Of a stretch of 64,000 bases of DNA, positions 22,868-62,728 are shown in pieces; the stretch's first letter is position 1; every line of letters starts with the position of its first letter. Location: the IMG/VR virus record IMGVR_UViG_3300045961_000282, positions 64,001 through 128,000 of that record. One strand, written 5' to 3'. A program made the position numbers and the translations under genes. The notes under the pieces were generated by a model. It searched no databases, was not told the origin of the DNA, and saw only the letters and a list, made by a program, of their open reading frames with translations. Source of the stretch: a virus.

Positions 22868-22874
22868 CGCTACA

Positions 22875-41100: not shown

Positions 41101-41646
41101 CGCGGTCATGTAGGCGATCGTCTCGTGCGGGGTGAAGTCGTGGTCCTCGGAGACGTCGAACCCCTCGGCCTTGAGGTCGTTGACCAACTGCGTGCGCATC
41201 TCGGCCAACCCGGGGATGTCCCACGACATCCACAGCACTGGCTTGCCATCCTCCGGCGGGGTGAACGTGCCCCAACCCTGTGCGCGGCCCTCGACCGGCG
41301 GCCAGTCCGACTCGGCCAACCAACGCCGGGTGAAGTCGTGCAGCCGCTGACGCTCCAGACCGTCGGCCTCACCGATGTAGGCCAACGTGATGTGGCGCTC
41401 GTCGAGGGGCAGTTCCTGCGCCTGTGCTGCAGCCGTGGGACCCACGCCGTACTGGCTGGCCACCTCCGGCACGATGCGGAACGCCAACATCGTCTTGACC
41501 GGTGCCTGCGGGTCGCGCTCCCCCTGCCCCTCGTGGTGCACGTCGCGCACGACTCGGCCACGCGGCAGGATGCGGGAGTCGCGGGCGACGAAGGTCGCGA
41601 CCGACCCGTCGGGGTTCCACAGCGGGGTGATCTCGTCGGGAATCAT
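38131..41646 (-). CDS. multidomain capsid maturation protease with 2H phosphoesterase-like domain
   Basis: 1171 residues from the ATG in an ATGA overlap (MIPDEITPLWNPDGS). Order of parts: a 2H phosphoesterase-like domain with two His-x-Thr motifs (H85-I-T87 and H174-E-T176); a 'RRYWTIGKGGAKIRWNSPGD' module (about 240-310) common in actinophage head proteins; a prohead protease region (about 365-760: 'LWQPNSMQGHDGAAIVGRI', 'GFLRGVSADLD'); two copies of a DUF6582-like module (about 818-972: 'YPIADVADLKRAIKSYGR', 'RKHIAKRARALGHPELIP'); and a helical C-terminus that may act as scaffold. It likely processes the capsid extension. Confidence 0.8.
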   Translation of the reverse strand: MIPDEITPLWNPDGSVATFVARDSRILPRGRVVRDVHHEGQGERDPQAPVKTMLAFRIVPEVASQYGVGPTAAAQAQELPLDERHITLAYIGEADGLERQRLHDFTRRWLAESDWPPVEGRAQGWGTFTPPEDGKPVLWMSWDIPGLAEMRTQLVNDLKAEGFDVSEDHDFTPHETIAYMTAPIAELPPFPESQPTQVFNSLVVGEDDFWTEYTFPMAMALRDGATMSLTAALESATTGLEAYSDEELDALIAAGGADRNRGNAEKLRRYWTIGKGGAKIRWNSPGDFDRCVKYLSKHLGPRAKGWCALRHKEMTRMWTGDMKHRIMYGWGGRPGSYWAKVAARSAANANNTVLVATADHSGEAMPDANPILMMLNGQKPAPVTFRIPLLLPEGIESGDGRTFKEGVVELRDLPIPLLWQPNSMQGHDGAAIVGRIDSVERVEGGMGNATGVFDTSPLAMEAVRMIREGFLRGVSADLDRFEAKIKGKGPGTTEAEKKEDDEETVTPDKMDITKGRIMAATLVAKPAFQECRIELDEPAPLPDGEYTQELGPDEQRMLEELATLLREEAQATFAITASGFKAAPIYPPKEWFDNPGLTKPTRLTITDDGRVFGHLAAWHVDHIGMGFGTRPPRSRSGYAYFMTGLVRTKEGEDVRVGQLTLTGGHASLSADAREAVKHYDDTASAWADVAAGEDSHGIWVAGSLRPAVTAEQVRAARASSISGDWRPIQGALELVAACSVNVPGFPLVEARVASGEVLALVAAGLAPLYADQLIALDPQAAALAARRRVFAPLDAKALEVSARMAKARVLSTQPVSVERRKAMAKKGWALPDGAYPIADVADLKRAIKSYGRAKESERAKVRKHIAKRARALGHPELIPEDWKNLSDWSEITLAMQAVDAAEFRDYSSEKREEMAKEGIAMKGGRYPIATVADLKAAIKAYGRGNPADKPEIRKHISKRARALGHPELIPDTWKDLSADVPFVEATEALVASLKTMRRREWDEQKISRDDVGRFRKIYYRLRNSPSSSAPEVRAALKAIKEAERVAEQEGMAEPETAKLAKEALDSAAESKIDERTQSEVIKAAQDMASLMERIEARGPEATIPFDQLPTEIQDAMKRYMKQSNLEERITKHFGPYMSGEVERSVADIVNFLERIIVDSQNYRRGYDTERV

Positions 41647-41960
41647 TTCGACTCCGCCTTCTTCCGGTCGTAGGCGTCCATCTGCTCGATGACGGTCATC
41701 AACGTCTCCTGATCGAGTTCCACGACCGGTGGCGGCTTGATCCCGGTCAGGGCGCGCAGGAAGTTGGGGGCCTCGACCCAGCCGCCGTTCTTGCGCTCGA
41801 AGGCCCGCAGCCCCGAGCCGTCCGGCTTGGGGACGATGGCCAACAGGTTCACGACCGCCGAAGGGTCGATGGAGTCGACCAGAGCGCCAAACCAAGGACT
41901 TATGGGCTGACCAGCCGCTGTCAGAGCCACCTCGGCCCGGCTCCACGTGGTGGCGCTCAT
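41643..41960 (-). CDS. small head-module protein (105 aa)
   Basis: Starts MSATTWSRAEVALTAAGQPIS in an ATGA overlap and ends in the ATGA overlap with the protease. 'VVNLLAIVPKPDGSGLRAFERKNGGWVEA' is a compact motif I cannot assign. The tight coupling to both neighbours implies stoichiometric co-translation, perhaps an internal head protein. Confidence 0.6.
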   Translation of the reverse strand: MSATTWSRAEVALTAAGQPISPWFGALVDSIDPSAVVNLLAIVPKPDGSGLRAFERKNGGWVEAPNFLRALTGIKPPPVVELDQETLMTVIEQMDAYDRKKAESK

Positions 41961-43183
41961 GCCCCGATCCCCATCTGCTCGCGGGCCCATTCGAGGTAGG
42001 CCTCAAGGCGCGCCTTGGGGTCCTCGACCAACGGCAGCGGCTCGGGCAGTCGCGCCGGGGACTCCTTGGTCACGACCTCGATGCTGTTGGAGTCGACCGT
42101 GCGCCGGTTGCCCTCGTCGTCCTCGATGACCAACTGGCCGTTCTCGATGCCCTTGACGTAGCCGAGGGCGCCGTCCTTGCTGCGCACCCGCGCACCCACC
42201 TTCGCGAACCGGCCGTGCCAGTCGCGCGGCTGGTTCGTGCTGTGGTGGTCAGAGGCTCGCTCTTTTGGGTCGGCATCAGCCGCGGGCTCGGCCCCTTCCT
42301 CGGCGACAGGAGCCGCGGCTGGCTCTCCTGCGGCGGCCAGTGTCATCCGCGTCGAGGCCATCTTCGCCATCGCGAGGCTGCGCTGGCGCACCAGTGCCGC
42401 CTTGGCCATCCGCTCCCGCGCCTCGGCTGCCTCGGCGCTGAAGTCGGTGGCGACCAGTTCGCTCAGCGAGGCGCCGTCGTGCACAACCTCGGCGAGGGCG
42501 TCGCGAACCATACTGGCTTCGAGTTCGTCGTCTTCATCGTCGTCGCCGTCGGGGCCATCGTCGCCCATCGCATCCTCAAGGGCGTCGGCCAACTTCTCTA
42601 CGGTCTCGTCGAGTTGGGTGGCAAGGCCCAGTGCGGTTTCGACGATCTCTTGGAGTTCCTCCGGCTCGTCATTCTCGGGCTCACTGTCGGGCATCTCCAT
42701 GGACTGGACCGACAGTTCGGCTGACCCCGTGACGTCGGGCTCCTCGGAGGTGGCCTGCGGGGCCTGCGGGGTTTCCCCGGCCATCTTGGTGAGGAAGTCG
42801 ATGATCGCGGTCGTTTCCTCGTCGGTGAACTCGAACAGTTCCTCGACGTCGATGTCGGCATCCTCGTCCACCGCCCCGTCGGGATCCTCGGCGGCAGCCA
42901 GCATCGCCACGCAGCGCTGCGCCCACTCCCGCCCGGCGTCCCCGCCATAGAGCCCCGCCTGCCCGGCCCGGTTGGGGTCGTAGCGCCAGTCTCCGGAGAA
43001 GAACCGCAGCATCTCCATCGGAACGCTCAGGTCCACCGGCATGGAGGAGTTGAGCACCTGTGCGACTGACACCGAGGGGGCGTCGCTGATCCCGAGGGCC
43101 TCACCCTGCCGCGCCTTGAGGGCGGCGTCGGCGCGCTGGGCCACCTTCTTGGGGACCCGCAGAGTCCGCTTCTTATTGCTCAT
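41957..43183 (-). CDS. acidic head-module protein with a 'RDWHGRFAKVG' motif
   Basis: 408 residues from MSNKKRTLRVPKKVAQRADA; the open frame upstream is the shadow of the previous gene. The middle is strongly acidic ('GDDGPDGDDDEDDELEASM'), typical of scaffolding or internal head proteins. Near the C-terminus 'RDWHGRFAKVGARVRSKDGALGYVKGI' combines a motif recurrent in actinophage head proteins with an SH3/KOW-like segment. It carries a dispersed motif copy at Ser-Met-Val-Arg. Confidence 0.6.
   Translation of the reverse strand: MSNKKRTLRVPKKVAQRADAALKARQGEALGISDAPSVSVAQVLNSSMPVDLSVPMEMLRFFSGDWRYDPNRAGQAGLYGGDAGREWAQRCVAMLAAAEDPDGAVDEDADIDVEELFEFTDEETTAIIDFLTKMAGETPQAPQATSEEPDVTGSAELSVQSMEMPDSEPENDEPEELQEIVETALGLATQLDETVEKLADALEDAMGDDGPDGDDDEDDELEASMVRDALAEVVHDGASLSELVATDFSAEAAEARERMAKAALVRQRSLAMAKMASTRMTLAAAGEPAAAPVAEEGAEPAADADPKERASDHHSTNQPRDWHGRFAKVGARVRSKDGALGYVKGIENGQLVIEDDEGNRRTVDSNSIEVVTKESPARLPEPLPLVEDPKARLEAYLEWAREQMGIGA
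42505..42513 (-). promoter_or_regulatory. GTATGGTTC dispersed motif, exact copy 8
   Basis: In the acidic head-module gene; read in a second frame as Ser-Met-Val-Arg (AGT-ATG-GTT-CGC), showing the DNA word is kept independent of the protein sequence. Confidence 0.7.
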
Positions 43184-43739
43184 CGGCCACATCCTCGTCG
43201 TCGAGTTCCTGCCGTGACAGCCAATCTTGAAGGAACGCGACGCGCTCAGCCCGCTCCTCGGCGGTGTAGGGAATCGCCATCGCTCCGGCGGCGGCGCGGA
43301 ACTCCGCGGCCACGTCGGGCTTCCATGCCTCATCGAGCCCCTCGACGTTGGCGAGGCAGGCCGAGGGGTCATCCATGGCCAGTCGCTCCCGCGCGCGGCG
43401 CACTTGGTCGAGGCGGCCCTGTCGCTCCGGTGACGCCTGTCGGATCGCGGCAGCCAACTGCGCCCGCATGGCATCGATGGCGGGCACAAACTCCATGTCC
43501 AGTTGCACTGGGTCGGAGATGGCAAGGTTGCCGTGGGCGGTTCCGTAGAGTTCGAAAGCCAACTCGTCAGACAGCGGAACGTTGGCCTGTTGGTACAGCG
43601 CATGCATAGCGACCAACGCGGCCTTGGATCCCGGCACTTCGCCGTCGGCCGAGATGATGCGGCCAACCTTGCCGTCAGAGAGGAACGCCAGAGTCGGGGC
43701 TCCGGTGAGCGGGTTCGAGGCAACCAGTGCGGTGACCAT
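43173..43739 (-). CDS. head-module protein of unknown function (188 aa)
   Basis: MVTALVASNPLTGAPTLAF, start overlapping the preceding stop (TGATG). The N-terminal half is beta-type, with 'GKVGRIISADGEVPGSKAALVAMHAL'. The C-terminal half is helical and charged ('RQGRLDQVRRARERLAMDD', 'EERAERVAFLQDWLSRQ'). No recognised domain. Position suggests a minor capsid or internal protein. Confidence 0.6.
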   Translation of the reverse strand: MVTALVASNPLTGAPTLAFLSDGKVGRIISADGEVPGSKAALVAMHALYQQANVPLSDELAFELYGTAHGNLAISDPVQLDMEFVPAIDAMRAQLAAAIRQASPERQGRLDQVRRARERLAMDDPSACLANVEGLDEAWKPDVAAEFRAAAGAMAIPYTAEERAERVAFLQDWLSRQELDDEDVADEQ

Positions 43740-44011
43740 CAGGACAGGCCCTCCCCGGAGACGTTGATGCCGCGGGCGGTCAGCATGGCCATGTAGGCAA
43801 GCCACTCCTCGCGGGACGCCGACACGATGTTGGCGTGCTCCTCGTAGTCGCTCTGCCGCTCGCCGGTCTCGTCATCGACCGACCCACCCGCTCGGTACTC
43901 GGCCGCGGCGATCGGATCGTAGCGATCGACGCCCTGATCCTTGAGCCACTGTGCCCACATGCTCTGCACCTCGGCAATTGTGGCCAGTTGCTCCTGACCG
44001 CTCGCGCTCAC
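43739..44011 (-). CDS. small helical protein (90 aa)
   Basis: Starts at a GTG in a GTGA overlap with the end of the giant gene (MSASGQEQLATIAEVQSMW). Helical and acidic, with 'EEHANIVSASREEWLAYMAML'. No domain recognised. Translational coupling to the giant protein suggests it may be its partner or chaperone. Confidence 0.55.
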   Translation of the reverse strand: MSASGQEQLATIAEVQSMWAQWLKDQGVDRYDPIAAAEYRAGGSVDDETGERQSDYEEHANIVSASREEWLAYMAMLTARGINVSGEGLS

Positions 44012-47000
44012 ACCACACCTCCGCTCGCTCCGCCGCCCGCAGGGGCGCCCGCCTCAGGTACTGCGCCCTCGGGGACCTCACCCTCGGGGACTTGCGGAGC
44101 GGGGGCCGCGGGGGCTGCTGGCCCACTGCCCCCGCGCTGCGCCTCTGCCTTTCGACGCATGCGCTCCATCCTGCGCATCATCTTCTCGGTGTAGTAGTTC
44201 TCGACGAGGGTGTACAGCCGATCCCTGCGCAGGTTCTTGCGTCCCTGCCATGAATTGCCCAGCATGCCCTTCTTGCCCGCCCATGGCTGCCCAGATTCAT
44301 CGGCTGGGTCGTAGCCGATCTGAGACAACTCGAACGGGGTCGGGAAGTTCTCGTCGCTTGGCGAGGTGTTCTGCATGCGCTCTTGGATCGCGGCAAAGTC
44401 GGCACGGTCCTTGTCCGTCCTCAGGTGCCGTTGGATAGATGACATCAAGTACCGGGCCTGACCGAGAGGGTCTGACTTCCAGCCGAATCCTGCCGTTGCC
44501 CATGCATATCCACCGACTGAGATGTTTGCATGAACATCATAATGCTTGATGCCATTCAGAATGGACCAATCGGACGTCTGTTTCACCAATTGTCCAGCAA
44601 GTCCGGTGTTCTGAACGTCATTATCCATGATCATGTATGCGGCATAAATGCTGGTGTTTTGAACCGTGACGTAGCCGTTTCCGACTCGCGGCATGTCCCG
44701 CAGGACATTTTCGCGCTGCCGTTCAATTGCTTGCGCCAGTTCAGATGGTGAATCAGCATTGAGCGCTTGGCTGATCGCGTCATCACCGACCTTGGCTCGG
44801 CGCAGGGCGTCGGCGATGTCGGATGTTGAAGCAGCATCCATGTCAACGATCCATCGGCTCGCTTCAAGGATCTGTGGTGCGGTCAACTGCAACCCGGAAG
44901 ACCCGACTTGATGCAGTTCGGCCAGCGCCTTCTCGCCGTACGCCTTGCGCGCGGAGCCAAACGCATCAGACAACTTCTTCACATTTTGCCCGACCGCATT
45001 CCACAGATCTTCGATAGATGCGACGTTCCCATCGGAATCGAGAATCGTGGCCCCTCGCGCATAGGACCGCATCAATGAGAAGTCGAACGAGGAGGATCCA
45101 TCCCCTGCATAACTGCTCAGAGCCTTCTGCAATTCACGAAGTTGGTTGTAATTTCCAATCGAGAATCCCGTTTCACCGAGCGGTTTCGATTGGTCCGCTT
45201 CGCTGACGAATTCACGGAACTCGTAGTTGATGTTTCCGTTGCGATCCCGGATCGGGCTTGAGGTGACGACCATTGCCAGCGCCGGGGCACCGGGGCGATC
45301 GGATATCTGAGTCGCCTCAGCAACGGCCCGCAAGGCACGTGTCGAGTTGTCCGCGGTCATGTCATCGAGCCGCGTTGCGGCCCCTGCGCGCTCGAAATCG
45401 TGGCCCAGCGGGTTGAACTGAGCAACCAACTGCTGGATCTCGCGCTTCTTGATCTGCTCGGCGCGGCGGCTCATCACCGACGGGCCATTGAGTTCCCTGA
45501 CCGGGACCCACGAGCGCGACCGCAGGGCGGCGGCGCCGAGGTTGGTTCGGTTGACGCTGGCCAGTGACGCGATCTCGAACGGTGTCGGGAGCCCCTCGAG
45601 GTCGGTGGCATCCTCGAGGTCGCGAACCATATCCGCGATGATCGCCTGCGCCGCTTCGTCGTCGCCCGAATCCCGGGCCGCCCGCGCCAGCATGGCCCGC
45701 ACGATGTCCTTGGTGGAGTCAAAGCCACCCATGGCGATGACGTCCCAGTCGAAGCCCGAGTTCGCCGCCGTGAGCCGCGCCGACGGGGGTGCATCGACAA
45801 TCTGCAGCGACGTTGCGCCGTTGGCGATCGCGTGGCGCTCCGCCGCCTTCAGGGCCTCCTGTTGGGCAAGGCGCACCGACTGCGACGTTCCCGGATCGAT
45901 CCCGACCCTGACGGTCGGAGGAAGGTCGCCGCTGCGGTCGATCTGCAGGGTGAACTTGCCGCCATTTTCGGCGCGGCCTCGCGGCTGGAGGGTCACGGCG
46001 ATGCGCCCGCCGGTCGGGGTCAGTTCGATGCTGTCAATCGACTGAATCCCACGGAACTCGGGGTTGGACAGCAGGTCGGCGAACAACTGCTCGCGAACCG
46101 CGTCGGGGACCGAGGAATCGGCAAGATTGGCGATGGATGGCGCCGACTGCCCTATGTGCATGATCCGGGCCGCTTCGCCCGCCCCGTGGCGACTGCGCAG
46201 GGCGTCGGAGTCAGCGGGACTGAAGGAGGCATTGATCCCCGACGTCCCGAAGTAACGGACTGGGTCGGCGACCAACGGGCTGGACTGCGCCAGCGACAGA
46301 TCGTAACCGCGCTCCCGTCGCACCTCCCCGGTGCGCAGGTCGCGAACTGTCACATACCCCCACGAGGCAGCAGCGTTCGTCCCGGGCTCCGGTTCGGTGC
46401 CAAGAACCACGGCAGACTGGGCGCTTGAGCCATATCCCATCCTTACCGTGTCGCCGACGACCAGACCGTTTCCGCCCCCGTCCGTGACAACGCCATCGGT
46501 CCCGGAAGTTGGTCGACGAACCAGTTGTCCATCGGAATCGACCAAGGCATTGACCTGTGCCTGACGGACTCGCTCGACGTCCATCTCGTCCTGCAGGGTC
46601 CGCATCGCGAACAGCGCCTCGCGGCGTTGCTGCATGGGGGTTGCGGGATCCAAGGCGATGCGCTCGACGACCGCGAGCGCCTGCATGTTCACCTCATGGC
46701 GGGCCGCGTACAGCATCGTGGGTGATGAGAGGCCGTTGGCCGCCGAAATCCCTGTCCGATAGGCCCGCGCAGCGTCCGGATCAACGCTCTCCATGACCCC
46801 AGTGAGGTCGTCGCCATAGCGGTTGATCGCGATCTGCATCAGCGATGAGTTGGCAGCCACCAATCCCGGCGGGACCGTCTGGCCTCGCTCGCGCCGGGCG
46901 ACCATGAGGTTGCGCAGGATCCCATTCGCTCCGACGAGGTCTCCGCCATCGATGGCCCTGCTCGCGACCTGCAGCGCCGACCGCTCTGCCTCACTGACCC

Positions 47001-50000
47001 CATCAGACGCAGCCGCTTGGTCGATGGCCGCCTTCGCAGAATTCCGGCGCGATGTCGCCGAGTAGCCTGAGGGTTGCTGAACTTCCCCAATCCCCCCCAT
47101 CGCGTCGCGGATCGATGCGTAGGCCAAGTTGACCGCATCGGCACGATCTGGGTCATAGCCTTCAAACGAAGAGCCCAGACCGGCGTTGTTCAGCAACGCC
47201 GCGGACGCCCGCTCGAGTTGATCTCGCGCCGTGGCGGCATCGCCGTCGCGCAGAGCGGTCGCTGCGGACTGCAGGACCGTGGAAACGTCAGCATCGGCCG
47301 TGTCCGCGAAGACTGATTGAGCCAGTTCATCGATCTGGTCGGCCTTCTCGGTGAAATCAACCGGGGGTGCCTCGGGAGTCGTTGACTCAGGAACGGTCGC
47401 CTCAGGCTGCGGCTGGTTCGACCCAACCCGCATCCTGCTATCGATCCGGTCGCGCAGGCCGACCGCGACGGACCGCCGGTAGTCACCGTAGGCGAGCGAG
47501 TCGATCACGTCGGTCAGGATGTTGCGCGCGGTGGCTCCGTCGCCGTTGCGCAGCGCGTCCACGGCTCGCTGCCCCATCCTGCGCAGGTCGGCCGGAACGC
47601 CTTGGGCTTCGAGGATTCCGGTTGCCTCGGAGATGAGGTCGCTGTAATCCACCTGCGGCTGAGCCTCGGGAGCCTCGGGCTCGGGAGCCTCGGGAGCCTC
47701 GGGCGCCGTCGGCTCCTCGGGGGCCTCGGGGGCCTCTGGGGCCTCTGGGGCGGCTTCGGGCTCGGGGGCCGGGGGTTCCTCGGGGGTCGGCCTGTCCTGT
47801 GGCGCCTGTCCGCGGGACAGTTCCTCTCGAACCATACGGACGATGTCGGCATCACTGATGGCGCCGTCGACCGCGGGGTTCTCCCAAAGGCGCTCACCCG
47901 GGCGGATGTCAGCGCCGCTGTTGCGGAGGTCCTCGATCGACTCCGGGTCCATCTCATGCAGGACCCCGGCGCGCTCAAGGACGCGCAGGACGCGCTGAAC
48001 CTCGTCGTCGCTCCACTGCGGGAACATGCCCCGGATCTCCGTGAGATCCCAGTTGACGACGCCGTTCTGGCCAACGAGTGCATCGACCGCTTGGGCGACA
48101 TTGGAATCCACCGAAGCGATGTCAAGACCGACCGACTCGCTCTGTGCGTAGGCGCGCACAATCTGATCGGCGATCTCGGCGTCGGTGAGGTTGGCGGCGC
48201 CCGCCCCGTACCCGTACCGCGCCATGCTGTCGCCGATGTCGATCCGCGACAGGACTCCGGCGTCGACCAGTCGGTCCAGCATCCCTTGGGCGCGGGCCAT
48301 GTTCATGTTACCGTACGTCGCCACGAACTCCGGCGTGACCGCGAGGTAATCGCGCAGCGCGGCGGCGAACTGCTGGGCGCGGGCAATCTCGGCGCTGCCG
48401 GGTGCCGACACGGGCAGGCCCGGAACGCCGTCATTGGGATCGCGTCGGTCGGGCATGGCGTCGCGCACGTCACCGTTGGGATCCCACACGGCGAGGGCAT
48501 CGCGCAGTTCTGCATCGCGCGCGTCGCCCGCTTGGCGCAGCCGCCACAGGGCGGCGTCGAACATGATCCGCTGCTCCGCTGAACCGTCAGGGAGTTGCAG
48601 CGCCGCAGCCAGCGTGGCACGGGCGTTCTGGCGATGCCGGTGGGCGGTCGCCTTCGCCGGGTCGCGCGGGGACACCGACATGTTGGTCGGCAGGCCACCC
48701 ATGATGTTCGCCACGCGCGACCGGGTGTCGGCGGCGGCGGCGGCCCAGTCGTTGTCGCCCCAGTGGGAGTCGCGCAGGGCCATCATGCGCCGCACTGCGT
48801 CCGCATCGCCCGCCTGCGACAGCCGCGAGAGGCCGAGGGAGTAGAAGGCCTCGAACTCGCCGAACTGCCCCGCCCGGTAGGCGCGTCGGGCCAGCGCGAA
48901 GGAGTTGGCCGCCTTCCGCCGGGCGTCGGCCTCCTGCCCCTCGCCGAGTTCGGCCACGAGGGCCCGCTGGCGGGTGACCTCATCAGAGATCGAGGCGATC
49001 TCCGCGTCGGTCCACGAAGCCCCCCGGGCGGTCGGGCGGCTCGGGGCGAGGTTGTCGTCGGCCAACCGGAACGTCGGATCGTCAAGGTTGCGCAGCCGGT
49101 CGGGGTTGACCCGAACCCGCGCGGCGTTCATCAAGCCCCGCAACTCCGTAGCGTGCACGAGATCCAGCGCGTTGCGGGCGCGCATCAGGGCGGCCCAGCG
49201 CTTCGCCGAACCCGGCTCAGCGTTCAGCGCATCCCCGAATGCCTTCTTCGCGAAGATCAGGGCCGACCCCGCCTCGCTGCCGCGTCCCATGTAGCGGATC
49301 AGTGCTGCGATCGACCCGCTGATCGCCTCGTCGTCCATGTCCCATGAGGTGTCGCTCAGGGAACGGCCGTGAGCACGATGCCGGATGTCCAGCAACTCAT
49401 CGCGCAGTTGGGCCAGATCGGCATTGTCGCCGGAGCGGCTCGCGGCGCGGTTGAGGCGGTTGATGACCCGCTCCAGCACGGCTTCGCGATCGAAGTTGGT
49501 GGCCGGTCCGAGGTCGCCGCGCAGCAGCCGGTTCAGATCGCGCTGGGCGACGTTGATGGCCGCCTGCACCTGCTGGCTGGTCAGGAATCGGGGGTCGCCC
49601 GCCAGTCCGTTGAGCCGGTCGGCCACGGACTGCAGGCTGTCGACCGAGGATGAGTAGTCAGCCTCATCCATGTAGTCGTCCATGTACCAGTACCCGTCGG
49701 GATCACCCTCGGGGGTCTGGAGGATCCGGTTCCCGGACTCGATCCACTCGCTGGTCGCGTCGGCCTGCTCGCGGGTGTAGTTCTCGAGGCTAACCTGCGG
49801 GTAGTCGTCCAGATAGCGGTTGAGCAGGGCATCGGCCCGTGCTGACGCCTCAAGCAGGCTCACCCGATCGGCTGCGCTGAACGCACCGTTGGCCTCTTGG
49901 GTGAAATGCCGCGACGCGAAGAGCAGCCGGTTGGCGCGGCCACGGTTGGCCCGGCGCGTTCCCAGCGGCTCGGACAGATCACCGATGCTGTCGACCAGTT

Positions 50001-53000
50001 CCTGCCAGTAGCGCTGGACGTTGGGGCGCGCCCCGGACAGCGCCTCAGTGATGCCGGACAACTGATCCGCATAAGGCTGCTGCCGCCACCCTGCAGAGTC
50101 GGTGGCCCGCTCCGCCGAAACCTGCGCCTCCTGCGGGGTGACCGTCGGCGCGGCGTCGGGCTCGTCTCCCGCGTCGGCCATCTGCATCGCCTGCGCGTAG
50201 GCGTCCAGCGCCGCAGGATCGGCGTCCTGCCCTTGCGCGTTGGCCTCCAGCGCCGCGTTCGTCGCGGGGTCGTTGCGCACCGCCTCGGCCGCGTCGGCCT
50301 CGGAGAGGGCGGTTTCCACGTGGCGGGTGGTGGATTCGTCCATCCCCGCCTCGCGCGCCACCTGTGCAACAGACTCACGGGTCGGCTCGGGGGTACTGGC
50401 CTCTGGGGTCGCAGAAACAGCCCCTCGGGGCCCTTCGCCCAACAGCGCATCCGCATACTCGGCACTATCGCTGCCTGCGAGGTCGTTCAAGAACTCGTCG
50501 ACGTTGCCATCGTGCTCATCCATGAGGTTGCGCACGAGCGCATTGCGTTGCCGCTGCGTCAGCGAGTCCCACTGATCCACCGCGTCGCTGATTGCGCCTT
50601 CCGCGCGCAGGTTGATCGGATCTTCGTCCTCGATCGGCGCGACCTCTGCGGCGGGCGCCTGCTGCGCCCCGGTGCGTTCGCGCCGTCGCCGCTCCCGCTG
50701 CAGGTCGCGGCGGTCGCGATTGATCTGGCGCTGCCAGTCGCGTGCCGCTGCCCGGCGCTCGGCCCGGTACTGCCGCGCCGCCCGGCGCTCGGCGGCCAGC
50801 CGTCGGCGCTCGCGGGCCTTGGGCTGGTTGCGCCGGTCGATGCGCGTGCGCGGGTATCCGGCCTTGCGCAGCATGCTGCCGATCCGGCGGCTCTGTGCAC
50901 GGGCCTTGCGGGCGGCGTTGACCTCACCAAGCGCCTCGGCCTCGGCGGCCCAGTCGCTCAACGCCTGCTGCATGTCGGCCAGCGCCTGCGCTGCGGCATC
51001 CTCGTCGCCGTTGGCGAGGGCTTCGCTGTACCGACCGCGCGCGTCATCGAGCCGCGAAGTCGCTCCGCCCGAACGCTCCTCGATCTGCCGCTTCGTCTCC
51101 GCGAGGTACTCGGCGTCCTCGGCGAAGTCGAAGTTGTCGTTGGGGTTACGACCAACCGCCGGGTTCTCGCCCAGCGGCACCCGTGGCGGCCCGTTCTGCT
51201 CGGCCTGCTCCCGGGCAGCGGCAATGTCAGCCGCTTCTTCGAGGGTGTCCGCGGCGTCGTCGAGGGCCCCGGCGACGTTGTCGCTGTCCTGAGCCGCAAT
51301 GGCGCCGTCGTCCACAGCGTTGGCGGCGTCCGACAGGCTGTGGCTGTCGGCGTCGGGGCGGATCGAGCCGTCGTCGCTGACCACCGAGTTGATGGCATCG
51401 CGAGCCGCCTGAACCTCGGGACGCGCGGCAACCTCGGGCTCGGCCTCGACGGCGTCCTCGACGTTGAACAGCGCCATCTGGTTGAGGTCATCGGCTTCGG
51501 CGTCGAACTCGGTGTTCAGCCACGCCCCGCGCGCGTCGTCTTCCTCGGCATCGAAATCTGCGTCGTGCTGGCGCAGGAAGTCGGCCAACTCGGTCCGCAG
51601 CGGGCCCATATGGTTCCGAAGGCCACGCCACGCAGCGAAGTCGTCATCCTCGATGTCATCGAGGCGGGACATCATGCTGTCGATGGTTCCGACGGCTGCG
51701 CGGATGTTGCGGATCGTGTCGTCGCCACTTCCGGCGTCTGCTAGCGCGAGGAAGTCGCTGATCCGACGCATCCGCTCACGCAGGTAGTCATGCGTGAGTT
51801 CGTCGGGGAAGGCGTTGATGGCGTCGCCGATCAAGCCAACCCCGTTGGCCGCGTCGTCGATGTCGATCAGTTGCTCCATCAGGTCGCCCTGAGAAAGGCC
51901 CTGCCATGCACCCATCGCACCTTCGGCGGCCAGATCGGGAAGGACCTCCAGACCCGACTCCTCCAGCGCCTGCAGTTCCTCGTTGCTCAGGCCCTCGGGG
52001 GCGCCAGCGATGTCGACCAGATTCCCGTCGGCGTCATACTCGACCTCGATGCGATCGCCGGGGGACAGTTCGGTTCCGGGCCACTGGCTGGACCAGCCCA
52101 AGGGCACCTCGAAGTAGCGGCGGCCCGGGGCGGGGCGAGCCTCGGCCTCGGGGGCCTCGCCTGCCGTCACCTCTTCGTGGCTGACGATCCGCCCGTCGCG
52201 GCGGACCACCCGGAAGGTCCTGCCGCTTTCGGCTCCCCGGTACGGGTACACCGTGGTGATCTCGCCATCGGGGGTGCGCTGGGTTTCCAGCCACCCGCTG
52301 ATCTCCTCGCCGTCCGGGGTGCGGTAGTTCCCAGTCATTCCCTGAACTGGGCGCTGCTCTTCGGGGGCTTCGGGGATTTCGGCGCGCGGCTCCTCCTCGG
52401 GAATCTCGGCCCGCACCCCCTCGGGGGCCTCTTCATCGACCTCTTCAAGATCCGTCGACTCGAAGGTAGCCAGATCCAGCGTCCGTCGGGCACCGCGCTC
52501 GCGGGCCGCGGCCTCAGCCGCCTCGGGGGTGTCGTAGACGTCGACGATGTCGGCGACGACCTCTCCGGTGTCGGGGTCGACGACGAACGCGACATGCGCG
52601 CCGTTCTCGCCGCTCAACTCCTCCCAGTTGTCGTCGATGAACGTCGCCGCATTGGCCCGCTGGAACTCCGCGAACTGGAACCGCCGCTCATTGCCGCGGG
52701 CAACCGCGATGCCGGACTCGGGGAAAGCCCCCTCGGCGGGGTCGAACGCGACGCCCTGCCGCTCATCGAAGGCACGAATGACGTGCTCGACTGCATCGTT
52801 GGGAACCATATCCTCGTCGGCGTTGACCCGGAGGTGCCTGCGGTGCCGGTCGAGACGCTGGCGGAACTTGCGGTCGGTCTCCTCCTGCTTGGCCCGCTGG
52901 GCCTCAAGGTCGAACGGCTCGACGCCGCGCTCGATGCCGCCGTCGACCGCAGCCTTGAGGATGGCGACCATGTCCTCGACGTCGGTGTCGGCGTGGTGCT

Positions 53001-55938
53001 CGCCCGTGCGGTCGATGCCGTAGAACCGGCGCATCGTGTCCATCTTGTCGTTGCGCGGAACTCCCTCGCCCCGACCGCGCAGGTTCTCGCCATGGAGCGC
53101 GCGGAACACCGGAAGGGTGTCGAGGATGCCGCCCTCAGGCATCCAATCCTGTCCGCCGGTCACACCCAAGTCGCGCAAGCGCTGCCGGATCGGCTCAAGG
53201 TCGACCCCCTCGGACTCCCCTGCGCGAGACGGGTTCATCACCGCGTCGATCATGTCGCGCAGCATCGAGGTGTCGAAGGCGGCGTTCTGCGCCACCACCA
53301 TGTCGGGCCCGATGAACTCGACCATCTCGGGCAGGACTTCCTGCCACGGGCGTTCCTGCGATGCCTCCTCGTCGGTGATGCCGTGAACCTGCTGAGCGAA
53401 CGGGTTGCTCGGCTTCCCGGGGTTCATCCTGAAGACGCGGCGATCGACCTCTTCGCCGTTCTCGAAGCGGATCAGCGCAGCGGAGACGGGGCGGTCTGGA
53501 AGGTCCATGCCCTCGGCGTCGGCCTGCATCCGCTCGCCCGCAAGGCCAGTGGTCTCCAAGTCGAAGCCGACCAAGGATCCATTGTTGATCCGGTCACGCA
53601 GCGCTTCGAGCGAAACAGTCCCATCCTCGTTCTGAATGCCAGCGGCCCGTCCCTGCAGGGCGGGGAACGTGCGGCCGGGCAGGAAGGGCTCCTTCAACTT
53701 GCCACGGACGAACTGCTTGCTCGGCAGCCGCTCGCTGGCCCGCTTGCCAAGGATGCGGGCAGTCTCCACCAAACCCGCAGCGGCGTCGCTGACGTCAACC
53801 GCGAGCCTGCTGTCGTCGCCACCCGACAACCGACGGCGCAGGGCGGCCCGCTGCACGGCGGTGGCCGCGTTGGCAACATCCTTGGCCCACTTGCCGAGAT
53901 CGCTCTCGCGCGCCTCGCTGTCGGCGTCGACTGCGCGCAGGGCGGCCACGGCGTCGGCTGCGTCGGGGTTGTCGGCCACGAACCCGTCGAGCAGCCCGTC
54001 GAGGTTGTCGTAGGCCATGTCGAAGTTGCGCCGCGCCGGGGCGGTGATGTTCTCTAGCCGCTTGTGCATGTCGCGGCTGTCGCGCGCGAACGTCTCCACC
54101 ATGCCTGCGCGCTCTTGAACGCCTGCCGCAACGTCGCGGCGGGCACGATCCTCAGCGGAAACTAGCGCACTGGGCTGCCCGTCGATCTCCGCGATGCGCC
54201 GCTCGGCGGCCTTGCGGGCCCGGTTTGCGGCCAGAGCGGCGCGGTCGAAGACCGTGCTGCGCATCGCCAGCGGCTCGATCTCACCGGACTCGATGTTGCG
54301 CGCCATTGCCTCAAGGGCATTGACATCCTCGGGGCCCAGCGCGTCGACAGTGTCCGGGTCGGTGATCAGCGCCCGGGCGTCGGCGACAGCGTCGTCCGAA
54401 CCATACGGCGAGGTCTCGGGGGCGGCCTCCGGCTCCGACTCGGGAATCTCCGCGACGACCTCGGGCTCGGGGGCTACTTCACCGGCATCCCCGACGCCCT
54501 CAGCGCCTCGGTCACCCTCTGCAGAAACTGCTCCTTCGTCTCCCCCGGGTTCGGCTTCATCAGCACCGGCTGGGGCTGCGCCTTCGGGGCCTTCTCCTCG
54601 TCCACCTTCTTCTCCCTCTGGTTGTGGCTCGGGGGCCGCCGGGGCCTCGGCTTCGGGGGCTTCCTGCGGCTCGGTCGTGGCCCGCTGCTCCGGGCGCGTG
54701 AATGCCCGGATCGTATCCTCGCGGCCACCTGATCCGGCGGCCACGCCGATCTCGTCGATGCGCTCCTGAATGTCCGCAGGCTGGTCCTCGCGGGCGTCGC
54801 GCAGAGCGCGGCGCAGGTTCTCGCGGCGGTCGTCGCCGGGGTCGTTGAGCAGGCCGACGATGGCGTCAGCGACCTTGTTGCGCTGGTCGAAGTCGGGATC
54901 AACGGGGGCGAGGCTGCGGAACAGATCCACCGCCTGTTGCGCCAGCGCGTCATCCCCTTCCTCGGTGGGGATGTCCATCCGGTCGGCGACCTCGCGCAAC
55001 TGGCGGCCGAGGTCGCGGCCCTGCGCGAAGGCGAAGTTCCCGCGCTCGAAGTCATCGGCGATGCGTCGCAGGTTGTCGGCCGCGAACGGATCGACGATCC
55101 CGTCCGCGTTCCTCGCGATGGCCTTGTCGGCGATCTGCAGTGCCCGGGCGAAGCGGTCCTTCTGTCCTGCCGGGGCCATCCGCTGGCGCCGCTTGGCGCC
55201 CTCCATCAGGCGGTTGAGTTCCCGCACCTGCTGCTGCCCGAGCGGCTCGCCGCGCGCGCCCGATCCGTCCCATTTCTCGTAGTCCCCGCCGATCAGGTCC
55301 TCGGGGTCGTTCTCGCCGAGGGCCTCGGCATCATTCGGGTTGTCCGGCAGTTGGGCCCGCCCGCCCGCCTTGGTCCCGGGGTCGGAAACGATCTCCAACT
55401 GGTCCGGGGACAGGCGCACAAACCGCGTCTCGCCGGGCTGCAGGTCATCGGGAACCCCGATTCCCATGCTCTCGATGTCGTCGTTGGTCGGATCACCGCC
55501 GCGCCCGAGATCATTTACTCGGGTGCTGATTTCAACAACAACGTCTTCATTGTTGTTCAATGCGCCCGCAATTCGCCCGTAGGCAACCGCGTCGCGACCA
55601 TCGGGGCGCTTGAAGACGGAGACGATCTGGAACGTCGCCTCTTCCTCGCCGTTCTCGTTGCGCACCCAGTTGGGCTGCTTGCGCCGCCGCGGGCCGATGT
55701 ACTTGAGGAACCGGCCCTTGCGGTCACGCAGCCAGTAGATCTCCTTGAAGTCCGCAATCAGCGCAAGGACCGCGCCGGGCAACGCCCCGCGGCCGACGAA
55801 CTGGGAATCCGTCCCGTAGAAATCGAGGATGTCGAACTCGGTCGCCAGCGGCGGCAGGCCGATCTCCTTCCGTGCCGCGTTGGTGCTTGCGACCATCGAA
55901 TCGAAGCCGAAAACCGGCGAGCGGTCGTCAGAGTGCAC
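44008..55938 (-). CDS. giant multidomain head-module protein with embedded DnaQ-like exonuclease
   Basis: 3976 residues, about a fifth of the window. It starts at GTG with GGAGAG upstream, overlapping the previous stop by 11 bases. Visible parts: an N-terminal 'YWLRDRKGRFLKYIGPRRRK' region; long Glu/Ala/Pro linkers (~420-520); a DEDDh exonuclease domain (~790-1060) with 'GFDLETTGL', 'QNAAFD' and 'HHADTDVED' carrying the acidic residues and the His; an Arg-rich stretch (~1680-1770); long helical regions; and two related C-terminal modules (~3415-3490 and ~3830-3900) with 'PTPFE' boxes, the second after 'VGGYAWATAGF'. Between portal and protease, this place normally holds MuF-type minor head proteins that may be ejected with DNA. 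Confidence 0.8.
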   Translation of the reverse strand: MHSDDRSPVFGFDSMVASTNAARKEIGLPPLATEFDILDFYGTDSQFVGRGALPGAVLALIADFKEIYWLRDRKGRFLKYIGPRRRKQPNWVRNENGEEEATFQIVSVFKRPDGRDAVAYGRIAGALNNNEDVVVEISTRVNDLGRGGDPTNDDIESMGIGVPDDLQPGETRFVRLSPDQLEIVSDPGTKAGGRAQLPDNPNDAEALGENDPEDLIGGDYEKWDGSGARGEPLGQQQVRELNRLMEGAKRRQRMAPAGQKDRFARALQIADKAIARNADGIVDPFAADNLRRIADDFERGNFAFAQGRDLGRQLREVADRMDIPTEEGDDALAQQAVDLFRSLAPVDPDFDQRNKVADAIVGLLNDPGDDRRENLRRALRDAREDQPADIQERIDEIGVAAGSGGREDTIRAFTRPEQRATTEPQEAPEAEAPAAPEPQPEGEEGGRGEGPEGAAPAGADEAEPGGDEGAVSAEGDRGAEGVGDAGEVAPEPEVVAEIPESEPEAAPETSPYGSDDAVADARALITDPDTVDALGPEDVNALEAMARNIESGEIEPLAMRSTVFDRAALAANRARKAAERRIAEIDGQPSALVSAEDRARRDVAAGVQERAGMVETFARDSRDMHKRLENITAPARRNFDMAYDNLDGLLDGFVADNPDAADAVAALRAVDADSEARESDLGKWAKDVANAATAVQRAALRRRLSGGDDSRLAVDVSDAAAGLVETARILGKRASERLPSKQFVRGKLKEPFLPGRTFPALQGRAAGIQNEDGTVSLEALRDRINNGSLVGFDLETTGLAGERMQADAEGMDLPDRPVSAALIRFENGEEVDRRVFRMNPGKPSNPFAQQVHGITDEEASQERPWQEVLPEMVEFIGPDMVVAQNAAFDTSMLRDMIDAVMNPSRAGESEGVDLEPIRQRLRDLGVTGGQDWMPEGGILDTLPVFRALHGENLRGRGEGVPRNDKMDTMRRFYGIDRTGEHHADTDVEDMVAILKAAVDGGIERGVEPFDLEAQRAKQEETDRKFRQRLDRHRRHLRVNADEDMVPNDAVEHVIRAFDERQGVAFDPAEGAFPESGIAVARGNERRFQFAEFQRANAATFIDDNWEELSGENGAHVAFVVDPDTGEVVADIVDVYDTPEAAEAAARERGARRTLDLATFESTDLEEVDEEAPEGVRAEIPEEEPRAEIPEAPEEQRPVQGMTGNYRTPDGEEISGWLETQRTPDGEITTVYPYRGAESGRTFRVVRRDGRIVSHEEVTAGEAPEAEARPAPGRRYFEVPLGWSSQWPGTELSPGDRIEVEYDADGNLVDIAGAPEGLSNEELQALEESGLEVLPDLAAEGAMGAWQGLSQGDLMEQLIDIDDAANGVGLIGDAINAFPDELTHDYLRERMRRISDFLALADAGSGDDTIRNIRAAVGTIDSMMSRLDDIEDDDFAAWRGLRNHMGPLRTELADFLRQHDADFDAEEDDARGAWLNTEFDAEADDLNQMALFNVEDAVEAEPEVAARPEVQAARDAINSVVSDDGSIRPDADSHSLSDAANAVDDGAIAAQDSDNVAGALDDAADTLEEAADIAAAREQAEQNGPPRVPLGENPAVGRNPNDNFDFAEDAEYLAETKRQIEERSGGATSRLDDARGRYSEALANGDEDAAAQALADMQQALSDWAAEAEALGEVNAARKARAQSRRIGSMLRKAGYPRTRIDRRNQPKARERRRLAAERRAARQYRAERRAAARDWQRQINRDRRDLQRERRRRERTGAQQAPAAEVAPIEDEDPINLRAEGAISDAVDQWDSLTQRQRNALVRNLMDEHDGNVDEFLNDLAGSDSAEYADALLGEGPRGAVSATPEASTPEPTRESVAQVAREAGMDESTTRHVETALSEADAAEAVRNDPATNAALEANAQGQDADPAALDAYAQAMQMADAGDEPDAAPTVTPQEAQVSAERATDSAGWRQQPYADQLSGITEALSGARPNVQRYWQELVDSIGDLSEPLGTRRANRGRANRLLFASRHFTQEANGAFSAADRVSLLEASARADALLNRYLDDYPQVSLENYTREQADATSEWIESGNRILQTPEGDPDGYWYMDDYMDEADYSSSVDSLQSVADRLNGLAGDPRFLTSQQVQAAINVAQRDLNRLLRGDLGPATNFDREAVLERVINRLNRAASRSGDNADLAQLRDELLDIRHRAHGRSLSDTSWDMDDEAISGSIAALIRYMGRGSEAGSALIFAKKAFGDALNAEPGSAKRWAALMRARNALDLVHATELRGLMNAARVRVNPDRLRNLDDPTFRLADDNLAPSRPTARGASWTDAEIASISDEVTRQRALVAELGEGQEADARRKAANSFALARRAYRAGQFGEFEAFYSLGLSRLSQAGDADAVRRMMALRDSHWGDNDWAAAAADTRSRVANIMGGLPTNMSVSPRDPAKATAHRHRQNARATLAAALQLPDGSAEQRIMFDAALWRLRQAGDARDAELRDALAVWDPNGDVRDAMPDRRDPNDGVPGLPVSAPGSAEIARAQQFAAALRDYLAVTPEFVATYGNMNMARAQGMLDRLVDAGVLSRIDIGDSMARYGYGAGAANLTDAEIADQIVRAYAQSESVGLDIASVDSNVAQAVDALVGQNGVVNWDLTEIRGMFPQWSDDEVQRVLRVLERAGVLHEMDPESIEDLRNSGADIRPGERLWENPAVDGAISDADIVRMVREELSRGQAPQDRPTPEEPPAPEPEAAPEAPEAPEAPEEPTAPEAPEAPEPEAPEAQPQVDYSDLISEATGILEAQGVPADLRRMGQRAVDALRNGDGATARNILTDVIDSLAYGDYRRSVAVGLRDRIDSRMRVGSNQPQPEATVPESTTPEAPPVDFTEKADQIDELAQSVFADTADADVSTVLQSAATALRDGDAATARDQLERASAALLNNAGLGSSFEGYDPDRADAVNLAYASIRDAMGGIGEVQQPSGYSATSRRNSAKAAIDQAAASDGVSEAERSALQVASRAIDGGDLVGANGILRNLMVARRERGQTVPPGLVAANSSLMQIAINRYGDDLTGVMESVDPDAARAYRTGISAANGLSSPTMLYAARHEVNMQALAVVERIALDPATPMQQRREALFAMRTLQDEMDVERVRQAQVNALVDSDGQLVRRPTSGTDGVVTDGGGNGLVVGDTVRMGYGSSAQSAVVLGTEPEPGTNAAASWGYVTVRDLRTGEVRRERGYDLSLAQSSPLVADPVRYFGTSGINASFSPADSDALRSRHGAGEAARIMHIGQSAPSIANLADSSVPDAVREQLFADLLSNPEFRGIQSIDSIELTPTGGRIAVTLQPRGRAENGGKFTLQIDRSGDLPPTVRVGIDPGTSQSVRLAQQEALKAAERHAIANGATSLQIVDAPPSARLTAANSGFDWDVIAMGGFDSTKDIVRAMLARAARDSGDDEAAQAIIADMVRDLEDATDLEGLPTPFEIASLASVNRTNLGAAALRSRSWVPVRELNGPSVMSRRAEQIKKREIQQLVAQFNPLGHDFERAGAATRLDDMTADNSTRALRAVAEATQISDRPGAPALAMVVTSSPIRDRNGNINYEFREFVSEADQSKPLGETGFSIGNYNQLRELQKALSSYAGDGSSSFDFSLMRSYARGATILDSDGNVASIEDLWNAVGQNVKKLSDAFGSARKAYGEKALAELHQVGSSGLQLTAPQILEASRWIVDMDAASTSDIADALRRAKVGDDAISQALNADSPSELAQAIERQRENVLRDMPRVGNGYVTVQNTSIYAAYMIMDNDVQNTGLAGQLVKQTSDWSILNGIKHYDVHANISVGGYAWATAGFGWKSDPLGQARYLMSSIQRHLRTDKDRADFAAIQERMQNTSPSDENFPTPFELSQIGYDPADESGQPWAGKKGMLGNSWQGRKNLRRDRLYTLVENYYTEKMMRRMERMRRKAEAQRGGSGPAAPAAPAPQVPEGEVPEGAVPEAGAPAGGGASGGVV
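47829..47837 (-). promoter_or_regulatory. GTATGGTTC dispersed motif, exact copy 9
   Basis: Inside the giant gene, read as Arg-Met-Val-Arg. Full context CGAACCATACG. Confidence 0.7.
54398..54406 (-). promoter_or_regulatory. GTATGGTTC dispersed motif, exact copy 10
   Basis: Inside the giant gene near its start, read as Pro-Tyr-Gly-Ser within a low-complexity linker, where protein constraint is weak. Confidence 0.7.
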
Positions 55939-56473
55939 CAGACTCTCCTGTCGTACCGTTGCTGTTCGTCATGCCGTCACGCTGTGCTTCACAGATGTTT
56001 GAGAGTAATGCGTCGAACTGATCCGCCGAAGGCATTTCCGCGATCCCCTGCTCGGCGTCAAAGCGACGCACCATCGAATCCGCCCACCGCTTGCCCGGGT
56101 CGCCGCCCCAAAGCAGCCACGCCACGTAGCCCGGGGTCTCCGAGCCCTTCTTGGCCCAGTCGGGTTTGCGGTCCACCGCGTGCCGGGCGAAGTACGCATG
56201 CATCTTCCGTATGGTTTCCCGACTACATGACTGCCCCGCAGCCAACTGCTTGCCGCGCGCCCGGCCGACGTCGGTCAGGTTCTTTCCGCCGCGGCCCTCC
56301 TTGAGCAGGTCGAGGCCGCGCTGCGCAGCCTTCTGCACGTCCTTCGGCGGGGCGTAGGTGTCGCTGGCCGCCGCCGTGATGGGCGCTACGGCTGCCAGTG
56401 GGGCGCCGATCTTGGCCATCATCCGCCGCCGCAGGTCGTCGCTGCCGATCTGGTAGCCGGTCTGGCTGGTCAT
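55928..56473 (-). CDS. head-module protein with 'AWLLWGGDPG' domain
   Basis: 181 residues, ATG behind GGAGGGTTCG and in ATGA overlap with portal. Residues ~40-140 ('PPKDVQKAAQRGLDLLKEGRGG', 'MHAYFARHAVDRKPDW', 'GYVAWLLWGGDPGKRWA') make up a domain that recurs in actinophage head proteins and is often fused to portal or protease. Its biochemical role is not known to me. It lies between portal and the giant protein, so it is probably packaged in the head. Confidence 0.75.
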   Translation of the reverse strand: MTSQTGYQIGSDDLRRRMMAKIGAPLAAVAPITAAASDTYAPPKDVQKAAQRGLDLLKEGRGGKNLTDVGRARGKQLAAGQSCSRETIRKMHAYFARHAVDRKPDWAKKGSETPGYVAWLLWGGDPGKRWADSMVRRFDAEQGIAEMPSADQFDALLSNICEAQRDGMTNSNGTTGESGAL

Positions 56474-58215
56474 CGAACCCTCCGCAAACCATACTCATCG
56501 GGCATCGGGATCGATGTGTCCGTCGGGATCCTCTTGCGCAGTTGCTCCGGCTGCTGCGGTGGCGCCTCTTCCTCAGGAACCTCCTCCGGCTCCGGCGCGG
56601 CGGGGCCCTGCCCAACCTCCGGCAGCGGCAGGCCCTCAAGGACTTCCGGTGGCAGCGGGGCGGCCCCTTCGCCCGGGGCGGGCATCTGGCCGGTCTCCAG
56701 CAGGCTCTGCAGGTTCTCCGGCATCGGCGTCTTGGCCCCGGCGATGTTCTGCTCGCGTACCTCGCCCAGCAGGTCGGGGGCGATCCGCTGGTAGACCGAC
56801 TCGGCGAACTCGCCTGCGATCTGTCCGCGGCTGACGGTGATGCGCTTGATCAACTCATCGCCGCTGGGGGCGTCGGTCTCGGCAAAGCCGTGCGCCGAGC
56901 GCCACGCGCTGCCGGACAACAGGTAGCGATCCCATCCATCGGAGGCGCTCTGTGCCCGGTCGGCCGAGGTGAGGATGTCCGACGGGTCGTACCAGACGAC
57001 GATCTTCTCGGCAATGTCCGGGTCAACGCCCTTGGCAATCAGGGCGGGCCGCATGAACATTGCAGTCAGGGCGTCGCAGAGCAGCAACGTCATGGGCTCG
57101 ATGTGCCCGCGGTACATGGTCTGGTTGATCTGCACCGCGTTGCTGTACTTGACGTTGGCCAAGCCGGTCACGACGTCCTTGGGCACATCGACGCCCTGCA
57201 GGATCCGCTCCAGAACCCGGTCGGCGCGCTCAGCCAGCGCAGCATCGAAGGACCGCTCGAAACTGAAGTGCCTGATCTGGGAACCCAACTCACCGGGGCC
57301 GCGGATGAGCAGCGGAACCACGGCGCTGGCCGATTCCTCGTCGGCGATGGGAGTCGTCATCGCGGCCATCAGTTCGGCTTCGAAGGAGTCGGCATCCTCC
57401 TCGAAGGAGCCGTCCTCGTTGACCACATCCGGCGCGGCGGCGACACTCAGGCCGTCTGGGACGAACAGTGCGCCCGCGTTGAGCCGCGATTTCGCCGTGG
57501 CCCGCACGGTGCGGTTGAGCAGCAGCAGTTCCTCACACAGTTGCAGCAGGGCCCGCATCGAGGAGTCGGCCTCGTCGTGGAACCGCGCGTGGGGCCGCCA
57601 GATCCGTCCCACGAACGCGCTGGACTCCAGCGGCTTGATTCCTTGGGTGCCCATCGAGCGAGCGGTCTGGACCGAGATCTTCCCGTTGTTGTCGACCTGC
57701 ACCTCGTCGATCGACCGGATCGTCCACTTCTCTGGAACCGTTCCATCAATGGAGGGCAACTGCTGGACCAGATAGCACTCGCCTGCGACCGAGAGGTTGA
57801 TGGAGGCGTCGGCGATCATCCCGGGGATGCCGCCGTGGCAGGACTGCAGTCGGTTGAGTTGGTTGTGCGCGAGGGCGACGACGTCCTCGTCGAGCGCAGG
57901 TACGTCCGACAGCGTCGACGGGGGATCGGAGGGCTCAGCGACGTAGGCGACATGAAGCCGCATTCGCGACATCAGGGCCGCGACCAGCATGAAGGCGTAC
58001 TTGATCTCCCCGATGCTGTCGTAATACTCCCACGCCTCGGACTGCCACGCCGACGTGGCGCCCTTGCGCTTCTTCAACTGCTCCAGTTCGCCGCGATCGG
58101 TGATCTTCATCCGCGCGGCGGCGGCGACCAACGGGCGGGGGGCGTTGAAGGGCAATGCCTCGGCGCGCTCGACCCCGGCGGGCAGGGGCTCGGGGGCCCT
58201 GCTGAAGACGCCCAT
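56470..58215 (-). CDS. portal protein
   Basis: 581 residues starting MGVFSRAPEPLPAGVERAE, overlapping the stop of the DUF1360-like gene (TGATG). 'YYDSIGEIKYAFMLVAALMSRM', 'INLSVAGECYLVQQ', 'FDAALAERADRVLERILQGVDVPKDVVTGLANVKYSNAVQIN' and 'WYDPSDILTSADRAQSASDGW' reproduce the actinophage portal pattern. It forms the dodecameric DNA gate at the capsid vertex. The C-terminal ~90 residues are Pro/Glu-rich. Terminase genes, usually just upstream of portal, are not in this window. Confidence 0.9.
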   Translation of the reverse strand: MGVFSRAPEPLPAGVERAEALPFNAPRPLVAAAARMKITDRGELEQLKKRKGATSAWQSEAWEYYDSIGEIKYAFMLVAALMSRMRLHVAYVAEPSDPPSTLSDVPALDEDVVALAHNQLNRLQSCHGGIPGMIADASINLSVAGECYLVQQLPSIDGTVPEKWTIRSIDEVQVDNNGKISVQTARSMGTQGIKPLESSAFVGRIWRPHARFHDEADSSMRALLQLCEELLLLNRTVRATAKSRLNAGALFVPDGLSVAAAPDVVNEDGSFEEDADSFEAELMAAMTTPIADEESASAVVPLLIRGPGELGSQIRHFSFERSFDAALAERADRVLERILQGVDVPKDVVTGLANVKYSNAVQINQTMYRGHIEPMTLLLCDALTAMFMRPALIAKGVDPDIAEKIVVWYDPSDILTSADRAQSASDGWDRYLLSGSAWRSAHGFAETDAPSGDELIKRITVSRGQIAGEFAESVYQRIAPDLLGEVREQNIAGAKTPMPENLQSLLETGQMPAPGEGAAPLPPEVLEGLPLPEVGQGPAAPEPEEVPEEEAPPQQPEQLRKRIPTDTSIPMPDEYGLRRVR

Positions 58216-58517
58216 CAGAGCCTCGTCGAGATCATGCCGGTCACTGCTGAGGCTGTGAGCATTCGTGCCACCGGCTCCCATGTCGTTGGCGAGACCCGCC
58301 GGGCGACGACGACGGCCGCTCCGGCCCAGATGCTCACGCACCACGGGCAGGTGAACAGGTATCCGATCTTGCTGTCGGCAGGATCGTGCCTGTCCCACAC
58401 CCAGTCGCGCACGGGTGCAGCGATCTCGTCCTCGATCAGAAGGCGGGTCAGTCGATATGTCGCTAAGGCGTCCACGACCAACGCAAGGCCGCTGCCACCA
58501 GAGTTGAGGGTACCCAC
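58215..58517 (-). CDS. DUF1360-like membrane protein
   Basis: 100 residues from a GTG after AGAGGAATCG. 'ALATYRLTRLLIEDEIAAPVRDWVW' and 'KIGYLFTCPWCVSIWAGAAVVVARR' are the two signature regions of DUF1360 proteins, with one or two hydrophobic segments and a CPWC motif. In actinophages this family is regularly found near the portal or the lysis genes. Function unproven. Confidence 0.8.
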   Translation of the reverse strand: MGTLNSGGSGLALVVDALATYRLTRLLIEDEIAAPVRDWVWDRHDPADSKIGYLFTCPWCVSIWAGAAVVVARRVSPTTWEPVARMLTASAVTGMISTRL

Positions 58518-58861: not shown

Positions 58862-58937
58862 TGGTACGGGCGGCGGGATTCGAACCCGCACTGCATCGGT
58901 TTTGAGCCGATTGTCTCTGCCGTTGGACTACGCCCGC
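58862..58937 (-). tRNA. tRNA with anticodon CAA, class I shape, encoded CCA
   Basis: Cloverleaf on the minus strand: acceptor GCGGGCG/CGCCCGT, U8-A9, D stem GTC/GAC, anticodon stem ATCGG/CCGAT with loop CTCAAAA, five-base variable region, T stem GCGGG/CCCGC with loop TTCGAAT, discriminator A and CCA at 58862-58864. The anticodon reads CAA (Leu, UUG codons), but the long variable arm of leucine tRNAs is absent. It begins immediately after the stop codon of the neighbouring small gene. Charging identity is therefore uncertain. Confidence 0.85.
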
Positions 58938-62700: not shown

Positions 62701-62728
62701 GCGTCCACGGTAGCCCACGGGTCAACCG

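Follow-up and report, generated by a model that had tools for sequence, protein, structure and literature searches.

What does a protein of almost 4,000 residues with a nuclease in its interior do among the head genes of a phage? The question is raised by a window of 64,000 nucleotides (bases 64001-128000 of a 206,257-base virus contig, record label G000), in which a single frame on the minus strand, 44008-55938, encodes 3976 amino acids. The frame starts with GTG, and an AGGAG box is located 6 nt 5' of this start. Because codon-position GC is coding-like over the entire frame (GC1 0.59-0.83, GC2 0.43-0.58, GC3 0.64-0.89), the giant is not a chance open frame, and the protein described in the first-pass annotation is real. 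A dip in GC3 is confined to residues 3601-3900, the stretch with the better copy of a C-terminal module described below.

The order of the genes on the minus strand is portal, a 181-aa protein, the giant, a 90-aa ORF, an ORF of at most 588 aa, the head maturation protease protein, the major head protein, and the tail genes. The portal protein (642 aa, 56470..58398) matches phrog_776 with an E-value of 3.2e-99 and is 51% identical to the portal of DSL-LC01, and the 181-aa protein (55928..56473) matches phrog_2859, a family of unknown function (3.4e-28). Downstream of the giant, the ORF of up to 588 aa (41957..43723, minus strand), the true start of which is probably further downstream, contains the motif RDWHGRF. 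The protease protein (38131..42006, minus strand; phrog_18402, 2.3e-58) contains RDDVGRF, and at its N-terminus there is a 2H phosphoesterase (2'-5' RNA ligase) domain in which both HxT motifs, HIT and HET, are present; this is possibly another virion-borne effector. The major head protein follows at 35824..37821 (minus strand; phrog_777, 3.1e-94). The giant itself has RDRKGRF at residues 71-77 (55708..55728, minus strand), so that all three exact matches to RDxxGRF in the six-frame translation of the record fall in head-module proteins; a related motif, RDRxGRFAEMGGG, occurs in the giants of relatives. The giant had been assigned to the place where MuF-type minor head proteins normally sit. 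Its position between portal and protease is indeed as described, but a Phage_Mu_F domain was found neither in the window's genome nor in seven related records. Nor can the giant be taken for the tape measure protein: no tape measure profile matches it, and another gene does (16529..22951, minus strand, 2140 aa; phrog_4197, 1.1e-60).

The host is probably an actinobacterium, because the virus has a WhiB gene, its nearest phages are actinobacterial, and its GC content is 66%. Just upstream of the portal there is a tRNA-Leu gene (CAA; 58862-58937, minus strand), and further upstream, on the same strand, are two adjacent genes of cellulase families, GH5 (61576-62718, 4.7e-22) and GH6 (62729-63850, 1.9e-56), a pair that is unusual as phage cargo.

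The one domain of the giant that Pfam names with confidence is the exonuclease. RNase_T matches residues 790-991 (52966..53571, minus strand) with E=9.2e-12 and 46.2 bits, above the cut-off of 24, and with wider bounds the domain spans residues 780-1050 (52789-53601). PHROGs places it in phrog_192, "DNA polymerase exonuclease subunit" (1.4e-26), and the assignment as a DEDDh (DnaQ-like) exonuclease is common to Pfam, PHROGs and NCBIfam. As the first-pass annotation had noticed, the motifs FDLETTG, NAAFD and HHADTDVED are present; the five catalytic residues, D793, E795, D889, H981 and D986, are all intact and are invariant in nine aligned giants. A fold model built from the alignment of these nine giants over the domain was good over the core (pLDDT 76.3, pTM 0.77), and its best Foldseek match was E. 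coli Pol III epsilon (2gui; 9.5e-10, target TM 0.77), with Staphylococcus aureus DinG second and PolC, ExoI and TREX also matched. When the profile of the giant exonucleases was compared with the PDB, the PolC exonuclease (7.6e-23) and DinG (6e-13, in third place) were foremost, and further matches were to "exodeoxyribonuclease III" entries, DnaQ and Cas2-DEDDh. Judged by the predicted fold and the catalytic residues, the domain is intact-looking. The nuclease is predicted to cut DNA rather than RNA, because its best solved relatives are DNA-directed nucleases.

Outside of the exonuclease, the giant consists of a composite of linkers, a basic segment and repeated modules, largely as the earlier description had it. 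The Arg-rich segment is located at residues 1701-1800 (50539..50838, minus strand), with 26 arginines. Linkers rich in Pro, Ala and Glu are found at residues ~2705-2765 (47644..47826, minus strand) and also at ~410-515, 1165-1200, 2840-2860 and 3940-3976. The only repeated cleavage-like peptide, AEIPE, occurs three times within such linkers and is not distinct from their composition; it was therefore rejected as a candidate. The C-terminal module is present in two copies, both on the minus strand. Copy 2 (residues ~3740-3912, 44203..44721), detected by phmmer and by profile, is shared with the giants of loci L075, L038 and L068 (phmmer 1.8e-14 to L075). Copy 1 (residues ~3343-3489, 45472..45912) is weak, with a first-round domain E-value of 0.018 that became stronger only after the copy itself had been added to the profile. 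In both kinds of search the module was otherwise found only in giants that follow the portal. A resemblance to GNAT seen by eye gained no support from Pfam or from the PDB profile search. Structure prediction by segment, which had been proposed at the outset, thus succeeded for the exonuclease but not for the C-terminal module, for which the model was poor (pLDDT 51) and had no structural match. A search of IMG/VR yielded close relatives neither of the window exonuclease nor of the C-terminal part.

To place the gene among its relatives, we analyzed 80 IMG/VR loci retrieved via the portal and 33 related virus records. Nearly all loci in which the sequence extends far enough have a very long frame behind the portal; the proteins in this slot are mostly 2,100-3,800 aa long, with a maximum of 7,671 aa. 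Most of them share one conserved N-terminal domain, and the complete giants with this domain are 1430 to 3777 aa long. The profile of the domain has no match in the genome of the window, where the best E is 0.97, and the 181-aa protein upstream of the giant is not the missing domain, so that a split gene was rejected. Two post-portal giants, of DSL-LC01 (3289 aa, WJZ48510.1) and A3Wally (gp85, 1913 aa), are both annotated as "hypothetical protein". In DSL-LC01 (L002), two frames between the portal and the giant, 19761-21161 and 21346-22389, match DUF3626 and DUF5824, and the former also matches the profile of the slot N-terminal domain.

The exonuclease recurs in this slot. In 10 of the 33 related records, with the window as an extra case, RNase_T is found inside frames of 2447-7671 aa, and in 7 of these 10 a UvrD-like helicase is located just downstream in the same frame. 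When the L015 exonuclease was used for the search, all 18 loci found had RNase_T within long frames, although some of them came from records already in the set. The longest examples, in L094 and L115 (both G020), L095 (G017) and L096 (G030), are single post-portal frames of, in this group, 7671, 6562 and 5743 aa, and each contains the exonuclease and a UvrD-like helicase. In L119, a single chain of 3527 aa comprises, in this order, exonuclease (RNase_T 7.6e-15), helicase, ArdC-N (1.4e-18), MPTase-PolyVal (6.1e-26), DnaG core and Toprim. MPTase-PolyVal is present in four records, G015, G019 and G002 among them, and among other giants of the slot there are matches to the ADP-ribosyltransferase, PI3/4-kinase-like, KTSC and WYL families. 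The slot as a whole is more remarkable than the window gene alone.

These architectures recall the polyvalent proteins, large multidomain proteins of portal-terminase phages that are encoded beside virion genes and are predicted to enter the host with the injected DNA, with ArdC-N and MPTase-PolyVal as hallmark domains (Iyer et al., 2017; PMC5512222). The window giant is likewise a large protein encoded beside the virion genes of a portal-terminase phage, and its slot relatives carry both hallmark domains. It differs in that it has neither: MPTase-PolyVal and ArdC-N are absent from G000, and the giant has no HExxH motif, although these domains are common rather than obligatory in polyvalent proteins. 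Moreover, a DnaQ-type exonuclease is not mentioned in the main text of the polyvalent protein study, in which UvrD-like helicases are described in giant proteins of actinomycete plasmids (Iyer et al., 2017; PMC5512222). Whereas L119 combines several disparate domains, the window giant has one named domain and the unnamed module that it shares with slot giants.

The window giant is a divergent, stripped-down member of the slot giants. It shares with them the post-portal position, the exonuclease and the C-terminal module; no helicase, primase or zincin is recognisable in it. The giants of DSL-LC01 and A3Wally occupy the same post-portal place and have the slot N-terminal domain in common with other relatives, but they lack the exonuclease, and direct BLAST between them and the window giant found nothing. 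In the exonuclease tree, the window copy is located beside two actinophage DnaQ-like proteins at a weak fork (78/86), and a single clade of all giant exonucleases including that of the window was neither shown nor rejected (p-AU 0.18). Because the tree does not unite it with the other giant exonucleases, the window exonuclease may have been recruited separately; the protein is either a fast-evolving member of the group or one that came to this slot independently. Solo phage DnaQ-like exonucleases of the same family (phrog_192; for example, in Streptomyces phage mu1/6 and Arthrobacter phage KellEzio) may, judging from the weak fork in the tree, have been the source of the domain. They differ from it as stand-alone proteins of roughly 235-240 aa that are annotated as DNA polymerase III subunits. 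S. aureus DinG resembles the giants of the relatives in that a DEDDh exonuclease and a helicase are joined in one chain, but no helicase was detected in the window giant, and the helicase of the relatives is UvrD-like and belongs to SF1, whereas that of DinG belongs to SF2.

Some of the giants contain repeated peptides in their linkers. In two closely related lineages, G006 and G015, [IL]D[KR]MA[AP] is repeated between modules and across adjacent giants; G[FY]xQxPG is repeated many times in G019, and SERKPGKATE occurs three times in G014. The loci concerned are L044, L099, L015, L098 and L114 (G015 and G006), L058 and L102 (G019), and L039 (G014). Codons differ between the copies, so that it is the peptide, not the DNA, that is conserved. 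These lineage-specific repeats are possibly processing sites, and G006, G015 and G019 also encode MPTase-PolyVal; however, other zincin-bearing giants have no such repeat, and the link between repeats and cleavage is therefore only a guess. The size of the giants alone is no argument for processing, because there are large virion proteins, the N4 virion RNA polymerase among them, that are packaged in one piece (PMC5512222). We regard it as a tentative and rather doubtful proposition that the slot giants are virion polyproteins, in which a kit of exonuclease, helicase, ArdC-N and primase would be strung on linkers and cut at the repeated peptides by their own zincin or by the head protease. The kit would enter with the genome and start its repair or replication, and the window giant would be a reduced version.

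What, then, does the window giant do? In the explanation that we consider the best, and somewhat probable, it is a polyvalent protein that travels in the virus particle and has an active exonuclease for DNA ends; its packaging and injection are inferred here, and so are the activity of the exonuclease, its substrate and its role. The giant would be made together with the head, packaged beside the portal, and would enter the cell along with the genome. Its DEDDh domain would be an active, metal-dependent 3'-5' DNA exonuclease. Inside the cell it would most likely act on the incoming genome, the DNA ends or 3' tails of which it would process in preparation for recombination, circularisation or a first round of replication. 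We favor a nuclease that enters with the DNA because both ArdC-N and MPTase-PolyVal occur in homologous giants of this slot, and processing of DNA ends on entry is suggested by the recurrent partners of the exonuclease, a helicase, the ssDNA-binding domain ArdC-N and a primase. The main rival, which we consider unlikely, is an injected weapon that degrades host or rival DNA, or the products and intermediates of host defence, early in infection. Such a weapon would be in keeping with the slot and class, which the giant shares with polyvalent proteins that contain ART and kinase-like domains, and with the neighboring protease and its 2H phosphoesterase, a domain that has been linked to counter-defence (Iyer et al., 2017; PMC5512222). 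However, an exonuclease on its own requires a free 3' end, and the helicase, ArdC-N and primase of the relatives better fit the handling of incoming DNA. The interpretation in the first-pass annotation is accordingly upheld for the portal-protease position and the intact-looking exonuclease, and for the MuF-type slot as regards position only, and we do not prefer the action on host DNA or defence systems that it suggested to a role in processing the DNA of the phage itself.

Three further readings are less likely still. A structural or scaffolding head protein, the exonuclease of which would trim genome ends during packaging or would be a binding relic, would agree with the gene position between portal and protease and with the RDxxGRF motif in common with two other head-module proteins. 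This reading is quite improbable: the invariant catalytic residues argue against a relic, and most slot giants, that of DSL-LC01 included, lack the exonuclease, so that packaging in this group does not depend on it. It is still harder to maintain that a proofreading or replication exonuclease came to lie in a long reading frame by chance. The name of phrog_192 points that way, and no other RNase_T domain, PolA, PolB or Pol III alpha was found in the record; yet the gene lies in a late head position, many contigs show this arrangement again, and three related records with a family A polymerase show no RNase_T domain. Least credible of all is an assembly chimera or a read-through artefact, because, even though a single metagenomic virus record is the source of the window, the coding signal is uniform and equally long frames are found in many independent contigs.

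Polyvalent proteins are known mostly from bioinformatic prediction, with few experimental examples. The phage group described here has a fixed slot with many giant members, and its cultured Microbacterium and Arthrobacter relatives make virion proteomics feasible; the repeated linker peptides offer a concrete, testable guess at the cut sites of the slot giants. If the kit of exonuclease, helicase and primase is present in the particle, the phage would handle DNA ends without awaiting gene expression.
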